Source of the DNA: Actinomycetota bacterium
GTDB lineage: Bacteria; Actinomycetota; Acidimicrobiia; IMCC26256; VFJJ01
Assembly (NCBI GenBank): GCA_009886115.1
Contig: VFJJ01000191.1
Coordinates: forward strand, 1 to 39,256
Direction of reading: 5' to 3'
Length of the DNA: 39,256 nucleotides
Shown here in pieces: positions 4,248-17,540 of this stretch (its first letter is position 1; each line of letters starts with the position of its first letter). The notes beneath the pieces are model-generated. The model saw only the letters and a program-made list of their open reading frames with translations, searched no databases and had not been told where the DNA came from. The position numbers were made by a program, and so were the translations under genes.

Positions 4248-5929
4248 GCGTCGCTCCTGGCTTGGTGGGCTCGGACGAGTTGGAACACGCTGACGCGGAG
4301 TTGCCAGCCGGGGGTCACCAGGTGACCGTCGAGGTCGAGGATCTCGACGACGATCTCGGGCTCGGCACTCGGGAGCTCGGCTCGAAGCAGGCGCGTCTCC
4401 TGGAGGGCGACGAGCTGATCGCCGAGGACCCGATCACCTGCGCTCACCCTCACCCGGAAAGGCTGCCCGTCTCCGACGACCGCGTAGTACCGGAACAGCA
4501 ACACGGTGTCGGAGTCCCGCAGCCCGAGCTGCACCCGGCTCCGGGCGTTGAGGTTGACGAGCGAGATCGCCCCGTTGGCCTCGTCGTTGACGAGCCAGTC
4601 CTCGGGCGGGAACCAGGTGGCCAGCCGGTCGCGGTGCTCGGGGCGGAACACGTCGGGCAGCAAGGTCGCCGTGAGCCGACCGGCGCCGGAGTGGGAGCCG
4701 TCGGCTTCGGTCCAGAGCCCGCCGGCGCGCTCGGTCATGGGGCGGCGGAAGCGATCCGGGGGCGTCGCAGCGACCGGGCGTCGGCTCGTGCGGGAGGACC
4801 GGACCCAGCGCAGCCTTCGGCGGCGCTCGCTCGGGGCGCTCGGGGCGCTCGGGGCCGCGTCGGTGGTGTCGGTCAGGGCCACCGGGGCCCGGCGAACGAC
4901 GGCGCTGACGCTGGCGCCGAACAGATCGGCCAGGACGCGGTCGCTCGGGGGCGCATCGTCGTCGAGACTGGCGCCGTCGGGTCGGCGGATCGAGCTCAAC
5001 GTCGACGCCACCGCCCGAGCGACGGCGTGGACCTCGCCCACGGTCGGCAGCTCGTAGCCGAGCAGATGCTCGAGCGCTCCAAGGTGCGGGCGTGCATCGT
5101 CGACGGCGTCGGCGAGGAGATCGAAGACCGCGCCCTGCAATGCATCTCCACGCTCTTCGAGCGCCAGGATCCGATGCTCGAAGTCGCCCACCTGTTGGGT
5201 GTTCGTGAGGTGCAGCTCCTCGATGGTCCCGTGTCGGGTGAACTCGGTGCGGAACAAGTCGAGTGGGATCCGATCGTTCTCGGTCATCCCGAAGAGCTCC
5301 TCGGGCCGCGAACCCCAAAAGGGTGACGAGATCGTGGGCAGGAGACCGTGGCCGTCGAGGTAGGTCTCGAACGGTGTGAAGGCATCGGATCGGTTGCTGC
5401 GAAAGGCGTAGAAGCAGCAGATGCGCCTGACGGGCTCGTCGTGGACGATCACGATCCCCCCTGGAGCGGTGACGCGAAACAGTTCCCGGAGGACTCGTTC
5501 GGGCTGCCAGGTGTGGTGGACCGCGGTGGCGATGAACACCACGTCGAAGTATCCGGTCGAGAACGGGAGATCGAGGAAATCGGCGACCACGGCCGTGGCG
5601 CCCGGGTGTCGCCCGGCGAGCCGAGCGGCGGCCAGGCCCTCGATGAGCGAGGTGGGGGCGATGTCGGTGACGACGCACTCGGCGCCATCGTCCGAGGCCA
5701 GCGCGTGCAGCGAGTGGTGCCGGTAGGCCGCGACCTCGAGGACGCGCAGACCCTCGACGGCCCGGCCGGGGAGATGGCTGGCGATCGCGCTGCGGACAGC
5801 CTGGAGGTGGGCGTCGCTCTGGGCGTCGACCGTGGTGTCGTTGGTGACGGTGTGCCACGCGAGCTCGCCGAGCTGCGGGGCGTGGAGGTCGAGGGCGTGG
5901 GAAGCGGGGGCGGCGGCGTCGATGGGCAC
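4244..5929 (-). CDS. SAM-dependent methyltransferase domain fused to a C-terminal beta-rich domain
   Basis: About 561 residues from the GTG at 5929; an ATG at 6073 would add 48 more. The N-terminal half is a class I methyltransferase: LRVLEVAAY at motif I, VVTDIAP, ADFLDLPF, FDVVFIATAVHHTWQPERVL, then RVTAPGGIVIVHDEP. The usual GxGxG of motif I is replaced by VAAYRHH. A linker rich in Ser/Ala/Pro and Arg (9-bp repeat near 4826-4857) leads to a C-terminal part of about 140 residues (DWLVNDEANGAISLVNLNAR, LLFRYYAVVGDG, FRVRVSAGDRVLG) that looks like a beta sandwich I cannot name. I prefer 5929 because the ATG at 6073 overlaps the divergent acuI start and the likely acuI promoter lies between. 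It is coupled to the crotonase downstream (ATGA). The substrate is unknown; glycan or lipid methylation is possible. Confidence 0.75.
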   Translation of the reverse strand: MPIDAAAPASHALDLHAPQLGELAWHTVTNDTTVDAQSDAHLQAVRSAIASHLPGRAVEGLRVLEVAAYRHHSLHALASDDGAECVVTDIAPTSLIEGLAAARLAGRHPGATAVVADFLDLPFSTGYFDVVFIATAVHHTWQPERVLRELFRVTAPGGIVIVHDEPVRRICCFYAFRSNRSDAFTPFETYLDGHGLLPTISSPFWGSRPEELFGMTENDRIPLDLFRTEFTRHGTIEELHLTNTQQVGDFEHRILALEERGDALQGAVFDLLADAVDDARPHLGALEHLLGYELPTVGEVHAVARAVASTLSSIRRPDGASLDDDAPPSDRVLADLFGASVSAVVRRAPVALTDTTDAAPSAPSAPSERRRRLRWVRSSRTSRRPVAATPPDRFRRPMTERAGGLWTEADGSHSGAGRLTATLLPDVFRPEHRDRLATWFPPEDWLVNDEANGAISLVNLNARSRVQLGLRDSDTVLLFRYYAVVGDGQPFRVRVSAGDRVLGDQLVALQETRLLRAELPSAEPEIVVEILDLDGHLVTPGWQLRVSVFQLVRAHQARSDA

Positions 5930-6022
5930 GACGCTAGTGCTACCGGCCGTCACCGAACGAGGGTGCTCTGGCGCCGCGCTTCCGGAGTGGTGCTCGAAGG
6001 GGAGATCCGATCGGGGCACGGA

Positions 6023-6028
6023 TATCGT
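6023..6028 (+). promoter_or_regulatory. Possible -10 element (TATCGT) for acuI-type gene
   Basis: TATCGT matches TANNNT. With a start of transcription about 7 bases on, the leader would be about 36 bases and would contain the GAGGAG ribosome binding site ahead of the ATG at 6072. Its position inside the longest reading of the divergent methyltransferase gene is one reason to prefer a shorter start for that gene. Confidence 0.35.
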
Positions 6029-6071
6029 CTCGACAACCGGCTGCGCTGACGCCGATGACGAGGAGCCGTTC

Positions 6072-7052
6072 ATGTTCCGTGCCCTGTTGCTCACCAAGGA
6101 CGACGAGGGGACGGTCGCCTCGACCGTCACCGACCTCGACGATTCGGCGCTCCCCGAGGGCGACGCCACGGTGGCCGTCGAGTATTCGACCGTCAACTAC
6201 AAGGACGGGCTGGCGCTCAAGAACCTCAACGGGGTCGTGCGCACCTGGCCCATGGTTCCAGGGATCGACTTCGCCGGCACCGTGATCGAGGCCCCCGGTC
6301 TCGCTGCGGGTAGCAGAGTGGTTCTCAATGGCTGGGGCGTTGGCGAGTCGCACTGGGGCGGGTTCGCCCAGCGGGCCCGGGTGAAGGCTGGCTGGCTCAC
6401 ACCGCTGCCGGATGCCATCTCGACCAAGCGGGCCATGGCGATCGGGACGGCCGGGTTCACGTCGATGCTGTGTGTCCTGGCGTTGGAAGCCCACGGGAGT
6501 AGGCCCGGCGACGGCCCGGTGATCGTCACCGGCGCCTCGGGCGGCGTGGGTTCCACCGCAGTGGCCATCCTTGCCACGTTGGGGTACGAGGTGCACGCAT
6601 CGACGGGTCGCCCGAACGAGTCCGAGTATCTCAAGGGCCTCGGGGCCACGACGATCATCCCCCGCGACGAGCTCACCGGCTCGCCGCGGATGCTGGGCAA
6701 GGTGCGTTGGGCAGCGGGCATCGACGCCGTTGGCAGTACGACCCTGGCCAACGTGCTCTCGATGGTGCGCGACGACGGTTGTGTGGCTGCGTGTGGTCTG
6801 GCCCAGGGCATGGACCTGCCGACATCGGTGGCGCCGTTCATCCTGCGTGGCGTCACGCTGGCCGGTGTGAACTCCGTGACCCGTACGGCCGAGCAGCGCA
6901 CCGTGGCCTGGGAGCGGCTCGCCACCGATCTGCCGTTCGAGAAGCTCGACGCCATGACCACCACGGCCGGTCTCGCCGACCTGCCGCGACTGGCCGAGGA
7001 GATCCTTGCCGGCCAGGTGCGCGGCCGGGTCGTCATCGACGTCAACGTCTGA
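6072..7052 (+). CDS. acuI: AcuI/YhdH-type acryloyl-CoA reductase (zinc-less MDR family)
   Basis: A 326-residue medium-chain dehydrogenase/reductase of the AcuI/YhdH/YhfP group. AcuI reduces acryloyl-CoA to propionyl-CoA with NADPH, detoxifying acrylate from DMSP, 3-hydroxypropionate or other C3 routes. Visible hallmarks are the start MFRALLLTKDDEG, EYSTVNYKDGLALKN, PMVPGIDFAGTV, LNGWGVGESHWGG, the cofactor motif TGASGGVGSTA from Thr153, and the family-typical LPRLAEEILAGQVRGR near the C terminus. Length and motifs agree with full-length AcuI. GAGGAG precedes the ATG. It is alone on its strand, divergent from the methyltransferase and followed by the 51-bp palindrome. The family is certain; the exact substrate is inferred. 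Confidence 0.88.
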   Translation: MFRALLLTKDDEGTVASTVTDLDDSALPEGDATVAVEYSTVNYKDGLALKNLNGVVRTWPMVPGIDFAGTVIEAPGLAAGSRVVLNGWGVGESHWGGFAQRARVKAGWLTPLPDAISTKRAMAIGTAGFTSMLCVLALEAHGSRPGDGPVIVTGASGGVGSTAVAILATLGYEVHASTGRPNESEYLKGLGATTIIPRDELTGSPRMLGKVRWAAGIDAVGSTTLANVLSMVRDDGCVAACGLAQGMDLPTSVAPFILRGVTLAGVNSVTRTAEQRTVAWERLATDLPFEKLDAMTTTAGLADLPRLAEEILAGQVRGRVVIDVNV

Positions 7053-7056
7053 GCGC

Positions 7057-7111
7057 GCCCCCAGGCCCCAGGCCGGCCGCCCCCAGGCCCCAGGCCGGCC
7101 GCCCCCAGGCC
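7057..7111. repeat. 22-bp tandem repeat, about 2.5 copies
   Basis: The unit GCCCCCAGGCCCCAGGCCGG plus CC occupies 7057-7078 and 7079-7100 without change, and a third partial copy begins at 7101 and runs into the palindrome. Each unit holds two CCCCAGG blocks. It starts 5 bases after the stop codon of the acuI-type gene. Confidence 0.85.
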
Positions 7112-7161
7112 GAAATTTGTGCAGAAATCGTCGCCTGGCGACGATTTCTGCACAAATTTCG
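7111..7161. repeat. Perfect 51-bp palindrome (25-bp arms, one central base)
   Basis: The left arm 7111-7135 begins CGAAATTTGTGCAG and the right arm 7137-7161 is its exact reverse complement; the single unpaired centre is T7136. The arms are much richer in A+T than the surrounding DNA. It lies between the stops of two convergent genes (7052 and 7198), so it could end transcription in both directions, although no T-tract follows. A perfect palindrome this long, flanked by other repeats, also resembles a small dispersed repeat of the REP or miniature-element kind. One copy is seen in this window. Confidence 0.9.
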
Positions 7162-7194
7162 AGGGGATGGAGGGGGATGGAGGGGGATGGGGGG
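7161..7194. repeat. 10-bp purine-rich tandem repeat, three copies
   Basis: GAGGGGATGG, AGGGGGATGG, AGGGGGATGG and a run of G follow each other directly after the palindrome and stop 4 bases before the end of the opposing SDR gene. The strand is all purine apart from one T per unit, so unusual structures such as a triplex or G-quadruplex are conceivable. Confidence 0.8.
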
Positions 7195-7197
7195 GCG

Positions 7198-8052
7198 CTA
7201 CGCCTTGTAGGGGACGGCTTTCAGGTAGCCGCCGGCGTCGACGCGCATCTGCATGCCGGTCACGTACCGGGCCTCGTCGGACGCCAGGAAGAGCACGACG
7301 TTGCTGATGTCGATGGGCTCCACATAGCCGATGGGCATGGCGTTCATGGCCGGGAAGGCCAGCTCGGCGTCCTCGCGTGTGGGGTTCTCGACGTCGGGTC
7401 GGAAGATCCGGTACATGGGGCCGCTCTGGAGCATGGGGGTGTTGACGTTGGTGGGGTGCACGGCATTGGCCCGGATGCTGTACGGCGCGAGCTGGAGCGC
7501 CAGGTCGTTGATGTACGCGCCGACCATCCGCTTGGCGAACCCGTAGCCCGCGCCACCGGGGCCGGCTGGTCCCGCGTCGACCGTGTTGGGGAGAAAGGCT
7601 GCCAGCGACCCGGTGGCGATGATCGAGGCGCCGGCCTTCAGGTAGCCAACCGTGGCGCTGATGGTGTTGATGACCCCGGTGAGGTTGACGTCGACGGCGT
7701 CGATGAACGCCTGCGGCGCCTCGGGCCCGAGCGGGCAGATGGCGGCGTTGGCGACGACGATGTCGAGGCGGCCCAGCTCGGCCACGCCGGCGGCTACGGC
7801 CGCGCCGACCGCAGAGCGGTCGCGCACGTCGACCTGCGTGGTGATCACGCGGCGGTCGAGCGCCTCGATCAGACGGGCCGTCTCGGCGAGGTCTTCGGGA
7901 CGTGACAGTGGGTACTTGTTGCTGGCGATGTCCTCGCAGATGTCGACGGCGATGATGTCGGCCCCCTCGGAGGCCAGGAGCAGGGCGTGACTGCGACCCT
8001 GCCCGCGAGCGGCGCCGGTGACGAATGCGACCTTGCCATCTACTCGACCCAC
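7198..8052 (-). CDS. Mycofactocin-coupled SDR family oxidoreductase
   Basis: A 284-residue SDR starting at GTG 8052 with AAGGAG well placed upstream. It begins MGRVDGKVAFVTGAARGQGR, with the Rossmann TGAARGQG at 12-19, followed by IIAVDICEDI and the inserted segment YPLSRPEDLAETARLIE. That insertion and the RGQGRSHA start are typical of the mycofactocin-coupled SDR family (TIGR03971), which keeps NAD bound and passes electrons to mycofactocin. The catalytic Ser is in IATGSLAAF and the YxxxK is YGFAK; VTGMQMRVDAGG closes the fold. The substrate is probably an alcohol. It implies that mycofactocin genes exist elsewhere in the genome. It is divergent from the SDR at 8218. Confidence 0.88.
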   Translation of the reverse strand: MGRVDGKVAFVTGAARGQGRSHALLLASEGADIIAVDICEDIASNKYPLSRPEDLAETARLIEALDRRVITTQVDVRDRSAVGAAVAAGVAELGRLDIVVANAAICPLGPEAPQAFIDAVDVNLTGVINTISATVGYLKAGASIIATGSLAAFLPNTVDAGPAGPGGAGYGFAKRMVGAYINDLALQLAPYSIRANAVHPTNVNTPMLQSGPMYRIFRPDVENPTREDAELAFPAMNAMPIGYVEPIDISNVVLFLASDEARYVTGMQMRVDAGGYLKAVPYKA

Positions 8053-14607: not shown

Positions 14608-15843
14608 ATGAACACGACGGTATTTGATGGGTGTGAGGTTGATGACCTGGCCGAGGCAATCGGTCAGCTCCGGGCGCTCATGACGGTGATTCATGCCCAG
14701 TTGATCGACGTGGTAGGCGTGTTCCAAGAACGTGAAGGCCACACGATCGATGCCATGCCGGACGCCGCCACCTGGCTCGCCGCCCGATCCAACCTCGCTC
14801 TGCCTACCGCCCGCCGCGAAGCCGACATCGCCACCCGAGCCCCAGCCATCCCTGCGCTGATGCACGCGTGGCGCAGCGGACGGATCTCCTGGGACCAACT
14901 CCTCGTCCTGGCCCCCGTCGCCACACCTGAGACCGATACCGAGCTCGCCGAGCAGGCACCCGGCTGGACCTATCACTCCACGGTCGTCAACGCCCGCGCC
15001 CTCAAACCTGTCAGTGCCGAAGAAGCACTCGAACAACACCGTGAACGGTTCGTGCAACTCGTCCGCCGACACGACTCGACACTCCGAATCCGGGGACTCC
15101 TCTCAGGCGACCAAGGCGCGATCGTCGAAGCCGCACTCAACCGTCTCGCCGACAGCCTCCCCGAAGAAGGCCGCCTCGAAGGTGGCGAGCCTGCCCGTCG
15201 TGGAGCCCGCATGGCCGACGCGCTCGTCGCCATGTGCGAAGCCCATCCCGAGGTCCTCGCCCAGAACCCCGCCCGACCTCTCGTCGTCGTCCACATCGAC
15301 GTCGAACCCTTCACCCACCACGACAACAGCGACTCAGGCGGTCACGGTCACAGGCCCGCGGCGGCCAAGCCCACCACCATCGGGGCTGGTTGGACCATCA
15401 CCAACGACACCGCCCGCCGACTCGCATGCGACTGCCGGTGGCAGATCATCGCCGACGACCCCAACGGCCAGCCCGTCGGGATCAGCCGCGATTCACGCCG
15501 TATCCCACCCTGGCTCGCCCGAGTCGTCGCCCGCCGCGACCAACACCGATGCCGATGGCCCCGCTGCGACCGCACCGCCTGGCTCGAACTCCACCACATC
15601 ATCCACTGGGCCAACGACGGCCTCACCAACGAGAACAACCTCATTACCATGTGCTGGCACCACCACCACATGCTCCACGAAGGCCACTGGACCATGTCGA
15701 TCAATAAGTCGACTCGTGATATCACCATCACCCGACCAGATGGCCGAACCTACACACCACCGACCGAACCCGACCAGCTCTCCGAACACACCCGAACCTG
15801 GCTCACCCAACTCACCGACTCGCCACCCACTGGCGGTGGGTGA
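14608..15843 (+). CDS. DUF222 / HNH endonuclease (13E12-type)
   Basis: A 411-residue protein with an N-terminal helical DUF222 region (about 1-280) and a C-terminal HNH nuclease. The nuclease core reads RDQHRCRWPRCDRTAWLELH then HIIHWANDGLTNENNL and CWHHHHMLHEG; the catalytic HH is His329-His330 and the CxxxC pair is RWPRCD-adjacent. Such genes occur in many copies in actinobacteria (REP13E12 family in mycobacteria) and are thought to be mobile, though the function is unproven. Codon use differs from neighbours: GAA, CAA and CGA are common, while nearby genes prefer GAG, CAG and CGG/CGC. The start is leaderless, 3 bases after an in-frame TTG. No flanking transposase or target duplication was found. 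Confidence 0.92.
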   Translation: MNTTVFDGCEVDDLAEAIGQLRALMTVIHAQLIDVVGVFQEREGHTIDAMPDAATWLAARSNLALPTARREADIATRAPAIPALMHAWRSGRISWDQLLVLAPVATPETDTELAEQAPGWTYHSTVVNARALKPVSAEEALEQHRERFVQLVRRHDSTLRIRGLLSGDQGAIVEAALNRLADSLPEEGRLEGGEPARRGARMADALVAMCEAHPEVLAQNPARPLVVVHIDVEPFTHHDNSDSGGHGHRPAAAKPTTIGAGWTITNDTARRLACDCRWQIIADDPNGQPVGISRDSRRIPPWLARVVARRDQHRCRWPRCDRTAWLELHHIIHWANDGLTNENNLITMCWHHHHMLHEGHWTMSINKSTRDITITRPDGRTYTPPTEPDQLSEHTRTWLTQLTDSPPTGGG

Positions 15844-16745: not shown

Positions 16746-17540
16746 TCAGTCGAGGGGGATGCCGCCCATCTGGGCACCGCCGTCGGCCGAGAACACCTGA
16801 CCGGTCACGAACGAGGCGGCGTCGCTGGCCAGGAACAGCACGACCGATGCGATCTCGGACGGCTGGCCGACCCGCCGCAGGGGCATGCCCGCCGAGATCT
16901 CGGACGGATCGAGGTTGGCGGCCTTCCAGGCCTCGACGGCGTTCTCGGAGGCCACCAGGCCGACGGCGACGCAGTTCGACCTGATGTTGAAGCGTCCCCA
17001 TTCACCCGCCACGATCTGGGTGAACATCTGCAGCCCGGCCTTGGACGCACCGTAGGCGCTGCCGCCGAGCACACCCCTCACGCCGGCCGCCGACGAGATG
17101 TTCACGATGGCGCCCGTCCGTCGCTCGATCATGTGTCGGCCGACCTCGCGGGTGAGCAGGAACGGCCCCCGCGAGTTGAGCGAGAAGACGCTGTCCCACA
17201 CACGGGTGGGGGTGCTCTCGATGGGCATCATCCGGGTGCCGCCGGCGTTGTTGACGAGGATGTCGACCTGGCCGAGCTCGGCGATCGCCTGCTCGGCCAA
17301 GGCGATCACGTCGTCTTCGACCTTCACGTCGCAGCGGATCGGTACGCACCGCTGGCCCGTCTCGGCCGCCACGGCGACCGCGATCCGTTCGAGCGACTCC
17401 GGCGTGCGCCCGGCCAGCACCACCGACGCTCCGTGCTGGGCCAGGATGCGGACCGTCGCCGCGCCGATGCCCGTCCCGCCGCCGGTGACCAGTGCCACCC
17501 GTCCCGTGAGGTCGAACAGGGAACCGGGTGCGTCGGTCAT
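16746..17540 (-). CDS. SDR family oxidoreductase
   Basis: A 264-residue classical SDR: GRVALVTGGGTGIGAATVR at the cofactor site, CDVKVEDDV, ILVNNAGGTRMM, catalytic Ser in VNISSAAGVRG, YGASK as YxxxK, and FLASDAASFVTGQVFSADGG. Related proteins include 2,4-dienoyl-CoA reductase-like and 3-oxoacyl reductases. The ATG at 17540 lies 7 bases after TACGCT with no ribosome binding site, so it appears leaderless, mirror-image to the divergent thioesterase gene at 17616. Co-expression with that gene is likely. Confidence 0.9.
   Translation of the reverse strand: MTDAPGSLFDLTGRVALVTGGGTGIGAATVRILAQHGASVVLAGRTPESLERIAVAVAAETGQRCVPIRCDVKVEDDVIALAEQAIAELGQVDILVNNAGGTRMMPIESTPTRVWDSVFSLNSRGPFLLTREVGRHMIERRTGAIVNISSAAGVRGVLGGSAYGASKAGLQMFTQIVAGEWGRFNIRSNCVAVGLVASENAVEAWKAANLDPSEISAGMPLRRVGQPSEIASVVLFLASDAASFVTGQVFSADGGAQMGGIPLD

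Follow-up and report, generated by a model that had tools for sequence, protein, structure and literature searches.

Which process placed a perfect 51-bp palindrome between two convergent genes, and what does this palindrome do there? It is located in a window, by which we denote the whole analysed stretch of 39,256 nucleotides. As claimed in the sequence-only reading, its arms are complementary throughout: counting outward from T7136, the first mismatch occurs at distance 26. The chance expectation for such a site in the window is 39,256 x 4^-25, which corresponds to about 3e-11. The convergent orientation of the neighbouring genes was confirmed as well; an ADH-family gene on the plus strand terminates at 7052 and an SDR gene on the minus strand at 7198. 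The locus contains the following features.

5922-7052, plus strand: convergent gene for a zinc-binding dehydrogenase (ADH_N, ADH_zinc_N) upstream of the palindrome; its start is uncertain
7061-7110, plus strand: left flank of C-rich tandem CCCCCAGGCCCCAGGCCGGCCG units; C-richness is general, the sequence is copy-specific
7111-7161, no strand: perfect 51-bp palindrome, from outward base comparison and RNA and DNA folds
7113-7159, no strand: 47-bp frame shared by every copy, extending 23 bases to either side of its centre T7136
7113-7134, plus strand: left arm AAATTTGTGCAGAAATCGTCGC, outer end type A (AAATTTG)
7135-7137, no strand: 3-nt apical loop, varying from copy to copy
7138-7159, minus strand: right arm, exact reverse complement of the left arm
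7162-7193, plus strand: right flank of G-rich tandem AGGGGGATGG units
7198-8052, minus strand: downstream convergent gene, short-chain dehydrogenase (adh_short_C2)

Fold computations yielded a stem of 24 bp with a 3-nt loop and -38.6 kcal/mol (z -13) for the RNA, and -29.2 kcal/mol (z -12) for the DNA. The arms had been described as A+T-rich. The element is indeed richer in A+T than its surroundings (about 51% G+C in a genome of about 70% G+C), but it is not A+T-rich as such, and the centre CGTCGCC-T-GGCGACG is rich in G+C. Neither the window nor 20 relatives matched any Rfam family, and phage records contained no match. The sole match in plasmid records comprised 25 bp of the flank.

In the genome collection searched, the source draft genome (G000; 5.45 Mb, 224 contigs, 95.6% complete) is the sole representative of both its genus and its family. 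A search of this genome with the arm sequence identified other copies, and the arm was found almost exclusively in inverted pairs. A covariance model derived from 38 copies detected about 75 sites scoring above 40 bits, and hits below this value were few and far weaker. A pattern search added two copies, and the full list comprises 78 places. The site thus belongs to a dispersed palindromic repeat with conserved arms, variable flanks and relatives in other families, as had been proposed. Seven contigs (C18, C21, C31, C124, C129, C151, C163) start at a repeat copy; the assembly is therefore interrupted at these places, and the genome may contain more copies than were counted.

An ungapped alignment in one 47-bp frame was obtained for 73 copies. 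On a common scaffold, two subfamilies can be distinguished, which are represented by GTGCAGAAATCGTCGCC (I) and GTGCGCGGAAATGCTCACC (II). The main outer ends are AAATTTG (type A) and TTCTGTG. The inner CGTC of the arm is paired, and it is replaced by GCTC in subfamily II. The arms covary: 221 two-sided changes were counted, compared to 91 in shuffles and 9-31 with the partner slid. At distances 3, 6, 7, 13 and 16 from the centre, complementarity is 0.90-0.97 within sites, but only about 0.5 across sites; the loop bases are free of pairing constraint. At distance 24, which is the pair just outside the stem, C or G is found, and a G-G or C-C mismatch occurs in 47 of 70 copies, which is above chance. 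Read inward, one arm tends to CCG in this context and the other to CCC. The ten flanking nucleotides, read towards the element, contain about 60% C and 13% G, compared to 38% C and 36% G behind other stop codons. This pattern, C-rich before and G-rich after the hairpin, is seen on both sides and at tandem sites too, and often consists of short tandem repeats. No target-site duplication, a criterion for MITEs, was seen by eye in the flanks inspected.

For locating the copies relative to genes, a dicodon gene caller was trained on 792 kb of the source genome. An earlier codon-based caller had put some copies inside genes; the dicodon version placed none there, and its genes were sensible. Convergent gaps hold 33 copies, compared to 9.1 expected from intergenic length, tandem gaps hold 32 (34.9 expected) and divergent gaps only 2 (23 expected). 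A facing stop codon lies at most 60 nt away in 67 of 70 copies, with a median of 17. At tandem sites, the upstream stop is 2-115 nt off, whereas the next start is up to 664 nt off; in these gaps the position of the hairpin follows the upstream stop rather than the next start. By its position, the window hairpin is a 3'-end element.

The pairing of the arms also depends on the type of gap. Convergent sites contain 0.76 core mismatches per site, compared to 1.44 in tandem sites (P 0.046), and the difference is present inside each subfamily (I, P 0.05; II, P 0.019). In Bacillus cereus, bidirectional terminators are more conserved than one-way terminators (PMC5381666), and better pairing at convergent sites is what a two-way terminator would show. 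In tandem sites, mismatches in the sense of the transcript are G-U (11) about as often as A-C (12), so that selection on the transcript strand is not apparent. No U-tract directly follows the stem; there are just AUUU-type stretches within it. The bidirectional terminator suggested by the sequence-only reading is thus supported by the convergent position behind stop codons and by the stable hairpin; the U-tract is lacking. Proximity to stop codons, enrichment in convergent gaps and avoidance of divergent gaps argue for a two-way 3'-end hairpin, and the site is most likely such an element without a U-tract, acting as terminator or insulator. In hybrids of outer-end types A and B between true tandem genes, end A is upstream in 5/5 cases; five hybrids are too few to conclude that the outer ends reflect the polarity of transcription.

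With the covariance model, similar hairpins were found in other Acidimicrobiia, mostly a few nucleotides behind stop codons. The interior of the arm is identical to arms of the source genome in 14/15 positions in G118, which belongs to another order, and in 13/15 positions in G001 from the same order; both values exceed all 300 shuffles. The class-wide form, present in other Acidimicrobiia families, is a 47-bp hairpin with the ends TTCTGTG...CACAGAA and a diverged centre. A free-spacing search yielded no lengths other than 47 bp (elements in G000, G001, G203 and G737), and when 28-80 bp were allowed, 17/17 elements from five genomes measured 47 bp. The TTCTGTG form was located, with at most two mismatches, at 153 places in 24 of 395 sampled genomes; the reversed control gave 11. 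In a set of 56 elements drawn from 17 genomes, pairing is 0.84-1.0 at the outer ten positions, weak at positions 13-18 and present again at positions 19-21, and the tip is open. According to this profile, the window family is the fully paired version of a hairpin of fixed length with an internal loop.

Near-identical elements also occur in tandem, at spacings of 60, 73 and 72 bp (G737, G144 and G724, respectively):

G737:C7 52092-52198: tandem element array
G737:C20 208074-208180: tandem element array
G144:C1 63248-63367: tandem element array
G724:C9 2274-2392: tandem element array

Beyond the class, palindromes of Microbacteriaceae are longer than 47 bp, and only the TGTGCAGAAA arm is shared. 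Dictyobacter kobayashii possesses several palindromes (L059, L075, L090, L104, L110) in which the core is TGTGCAGAAA and the outer arms are unrelated. No AbiEi/DUF559 gene neighbours the palindromes of Dictyobacter, Firmicutes and others with this arm in the DNA examined, and they were set aside as unrelated. IMG/VR contained a few matches to the arm or the ends; three viral contigs (L340, L342, L344) carry a related stretch of 47 bp, TTCTGTG...CACAGAA, whose centre is poorly palindromic.

A candidate partner of the repeat is found beside it. In G248 and in G117, the gene between two close copies encodes a DUF559/MTES_1575 (Vsr-like) nuclease. Further such genes are present in the examined DNA, and an AbiEi_4 winged helix is recognisable in most of them. 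A profile made from seven Acidimicrobiia nuclease proteins, in which the catalytic-type residues E200, D232, E243, H250, D259 and R262 are invariant, also found genes in Agreia pratensis, Agreia bicolorata and Pseudoclavibacter soli, whose loci had been selected by the TGTGCAGAAA hairpin pattern alone. Clear copies bracket the nuclease gene in five genomes (G000, G090, G117, G248 and Pseudoclavibacter soli), and in G123, G118, G732 and the two Agreia the gene lies beside a copy. Hence, in ten genomes the palindrome adjoins 10/10 distinct AbiEi/DUF559 genes of the examined DNA, an adjacency that is partly biased, as most loci were chosen for containing a palindrome and only L180 is from an unselected stretch. 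No palindrome lies beside the two AbiEi-domain genes that are devoid of the nuclease domain (L177, L222). Three loci are specified here.

L180 15833-16741 (G000:C178): gene with AbiEi_4 and DUF559/MTES_1575 domains, elements at 15732-15778 and 16755-16801 (diverged copies)
L054 1056-1976 (G090): nuclease gene with elements on both sides
L122 5600-5760, compared to L105 and L069: Agreia presence/absence locus

About 1.6% of the approximately 4,900 gaps of the source genome hold a copy, so that a given gene is bracketed with a chance of about 3e-4. Within the roughly 1.3 Mb of this genome that were examined, no AbiEi/DUF559 gene other than that of L180 is present, and together these values make coincidence a weak explanation for G000. 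At the orthologous locus of Agreia sp. VKM Ac-1783, the nuclease gene is missing and a single palindrome is left. In several genomes, the copy on the 5' side precedes the start of the nuclease gene by about 30-180 bp; the window copy is not so placed. An AlphaFold model of the L054 protein, calculated with 4 sequences, has a mean pLDDT of 43. In the literature searched, which did not cover subscription journals, no report of a pairing of the palindrome with an AbiEi/DUF559 nuclease was found.

One further gene of the source genome, encoding a PhyH dioxygenase (G000:C52, L171 17132-18091), is bracketed by two copies as well. These carry a common variant, AACGAACG, which occurs in no other listed copy.

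Several explanations can be weighed against these data. If the palindromes were ordinary intrinsic terminators without a tail, an RNA hairpin would be selected at gene ends and the similarity of the copies would stem from occasional segmental copying in the absence of any mobilising protein. This would account for the location at stop codons, the convergent enrichment, the better pairing at convergent sites and the high stability of the hairpin; bidirectional intrinsic terminators are likewise stable hairpins that are more constrained between convergent than between tandem genes. However, near-identical 47-bp copies in unrelated flanks, discrete subfamilies, an invariant length and a stem-base sequence conserved across families are all superfluous for termination. 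Moreover, other gene-end hairpins of the source genome are arbitrary in sequence. We regard this explanation as unlikely. From bidirectional intrinsic terminators, the element differs in that it lacks a U-tract and forms a sequence-conserved repeat family of fixed length. The placement of the copies is also that of REPs, which are short palindromic extragenic repeats near gene 3' ends; in some REP families, copies flank a partner gene (PMC3733652). As in tagged REPs (REPIN/BIME, RAYT), there are tens of extragenic copies in convergent and tandem gaps. It is nevertheless very improbable that the copies form a classical REP family whose mobilising RAYT (Y1 tyrosine transposase) has been lost or falls into an assembly gap: the search for Y1_Tnp (PF01797) gave no match in the source genome at its given completeness, whereas five control genomes were positive, and the neighbouring nuclease genes belong to another family. 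Furthermore, the element measures 47-51 bp instead of the 20-40 bp of REPs, its length is invariant across bacterial families, and its AAATTTG or TTCTGTG ends are paired, in contrast to the unpaired GTAG or CGTC tag. As a possible tag, the CGTC within the arm was rejected on the basis of its pairing and its replacement in subfamily II. Without tag and transposase and with a different size, the element was not classified as a tagged REP despite its REP-like placement. Untagged REP-like stem-loops of M. tuberculosis, Deinococcus and Bordetella (PMC3733652) are similarly dispersed palindromes lacking a terminal tag, but differ in sequence, host class and neighbouring gene.

The palindromes could also be operators of an AbiEi-like repressor regulon, the nuclease domain having no part in their spread. 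In type IV toxin-antitoxin systems (abiE), the AbiEi protein of Streptococcus agalactiae recognises a pair of 23-bp inverted repeats separated by 3 bp (11-N27-11, 49 bp) in its own promoter; two monomers occupy the operator and the DNA is bent (PMC3985639, PMC7319586). The present element of 47 bp is arranged as 22-3-22, with N27 between TTCTGTGNGC and its mirror, compared to 23-3-23 in the AbiEi operator. Both consist of paired inverted repeats with a 3-bp centre and are best conserved in their outer part, and the 5'-side copies near the nuclease gene start could fit an operator. In contrast, the element is unrelated in sequence to the operator, its partner protein carries a nuclease domain, and dozens of copies are dispersed at gene 3' ends, with only 2 of 67 in divergent promoter regions. 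A regulon is therefore quite improbable. Least probable of all is an integron-like arrangement in which the palindromes mark where cassettes, each made up of gene and hairpin, recombine, and in which solo copies are scars. Like copies bracket the DUF559 gene of L180 and the PhyH gene of L171, and the Agreia presence/absence locus with its one remaining palindrome would fit this reading. The copies are, however, mostly solo and dispersed rather than arrayed, and the ends TTCTGTG...CACAGAA do not fit integron attC boxes, which read GTTRRRY/RYYYAAC.

With moderate confidence, we favour a REP-like family of 47-bp hairpins that is tied to an AbiEi-type nuclease, persists at gene ends and probably terminates transcripts. 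The window site would then be a solo copy of this element of fixed length, whose copies have presumably spread through the genome and persisted just behind stop codons. There, the hairpin would mark and probably terminate transcripts, from both sides where genes converge. Two AbiEi-nuclease proteins may bind the two arms, as AbiEi does on its paired 23-bp operator; such binding would account for the fixed length, the conserved ends and the drifting centre. Cutting by the nuclease and subsequent repair could copy the palindrome to new places, and the host may keep copies behind genes, where a hairpin would do no harm or would serve as a two-way 3' end. More tentatively, the palindrome-bounded gene of the AbiEi-Vsr-like nuclease may represent a new kind of selfish unit in Actinomycetota. 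The nuclease would bind the two 23-bp arms and disperse the palindrome at its own borders in the form of solo hairpins, which the host would retain as signals for two-way 3' ends. It would correspond to a REP system in which a restriction-type nuclease replaces the tyrosine transposase.

A survey of 2013 found no transposase for a whole REP superfamily (PMC3733652). As the agent that could spread untagged palindromic repeats when a RAYT is lacking, the repeat-bracketed AbiEi/DUF559 nuclease is a concrete candidate. If this proposal is true, DUF559/AbiEi fusion proteins would gain a function beyond toxin-antitoxin systems or defence, and some terminators would form a class of their own, delivered in finished form as mobile hairpins.
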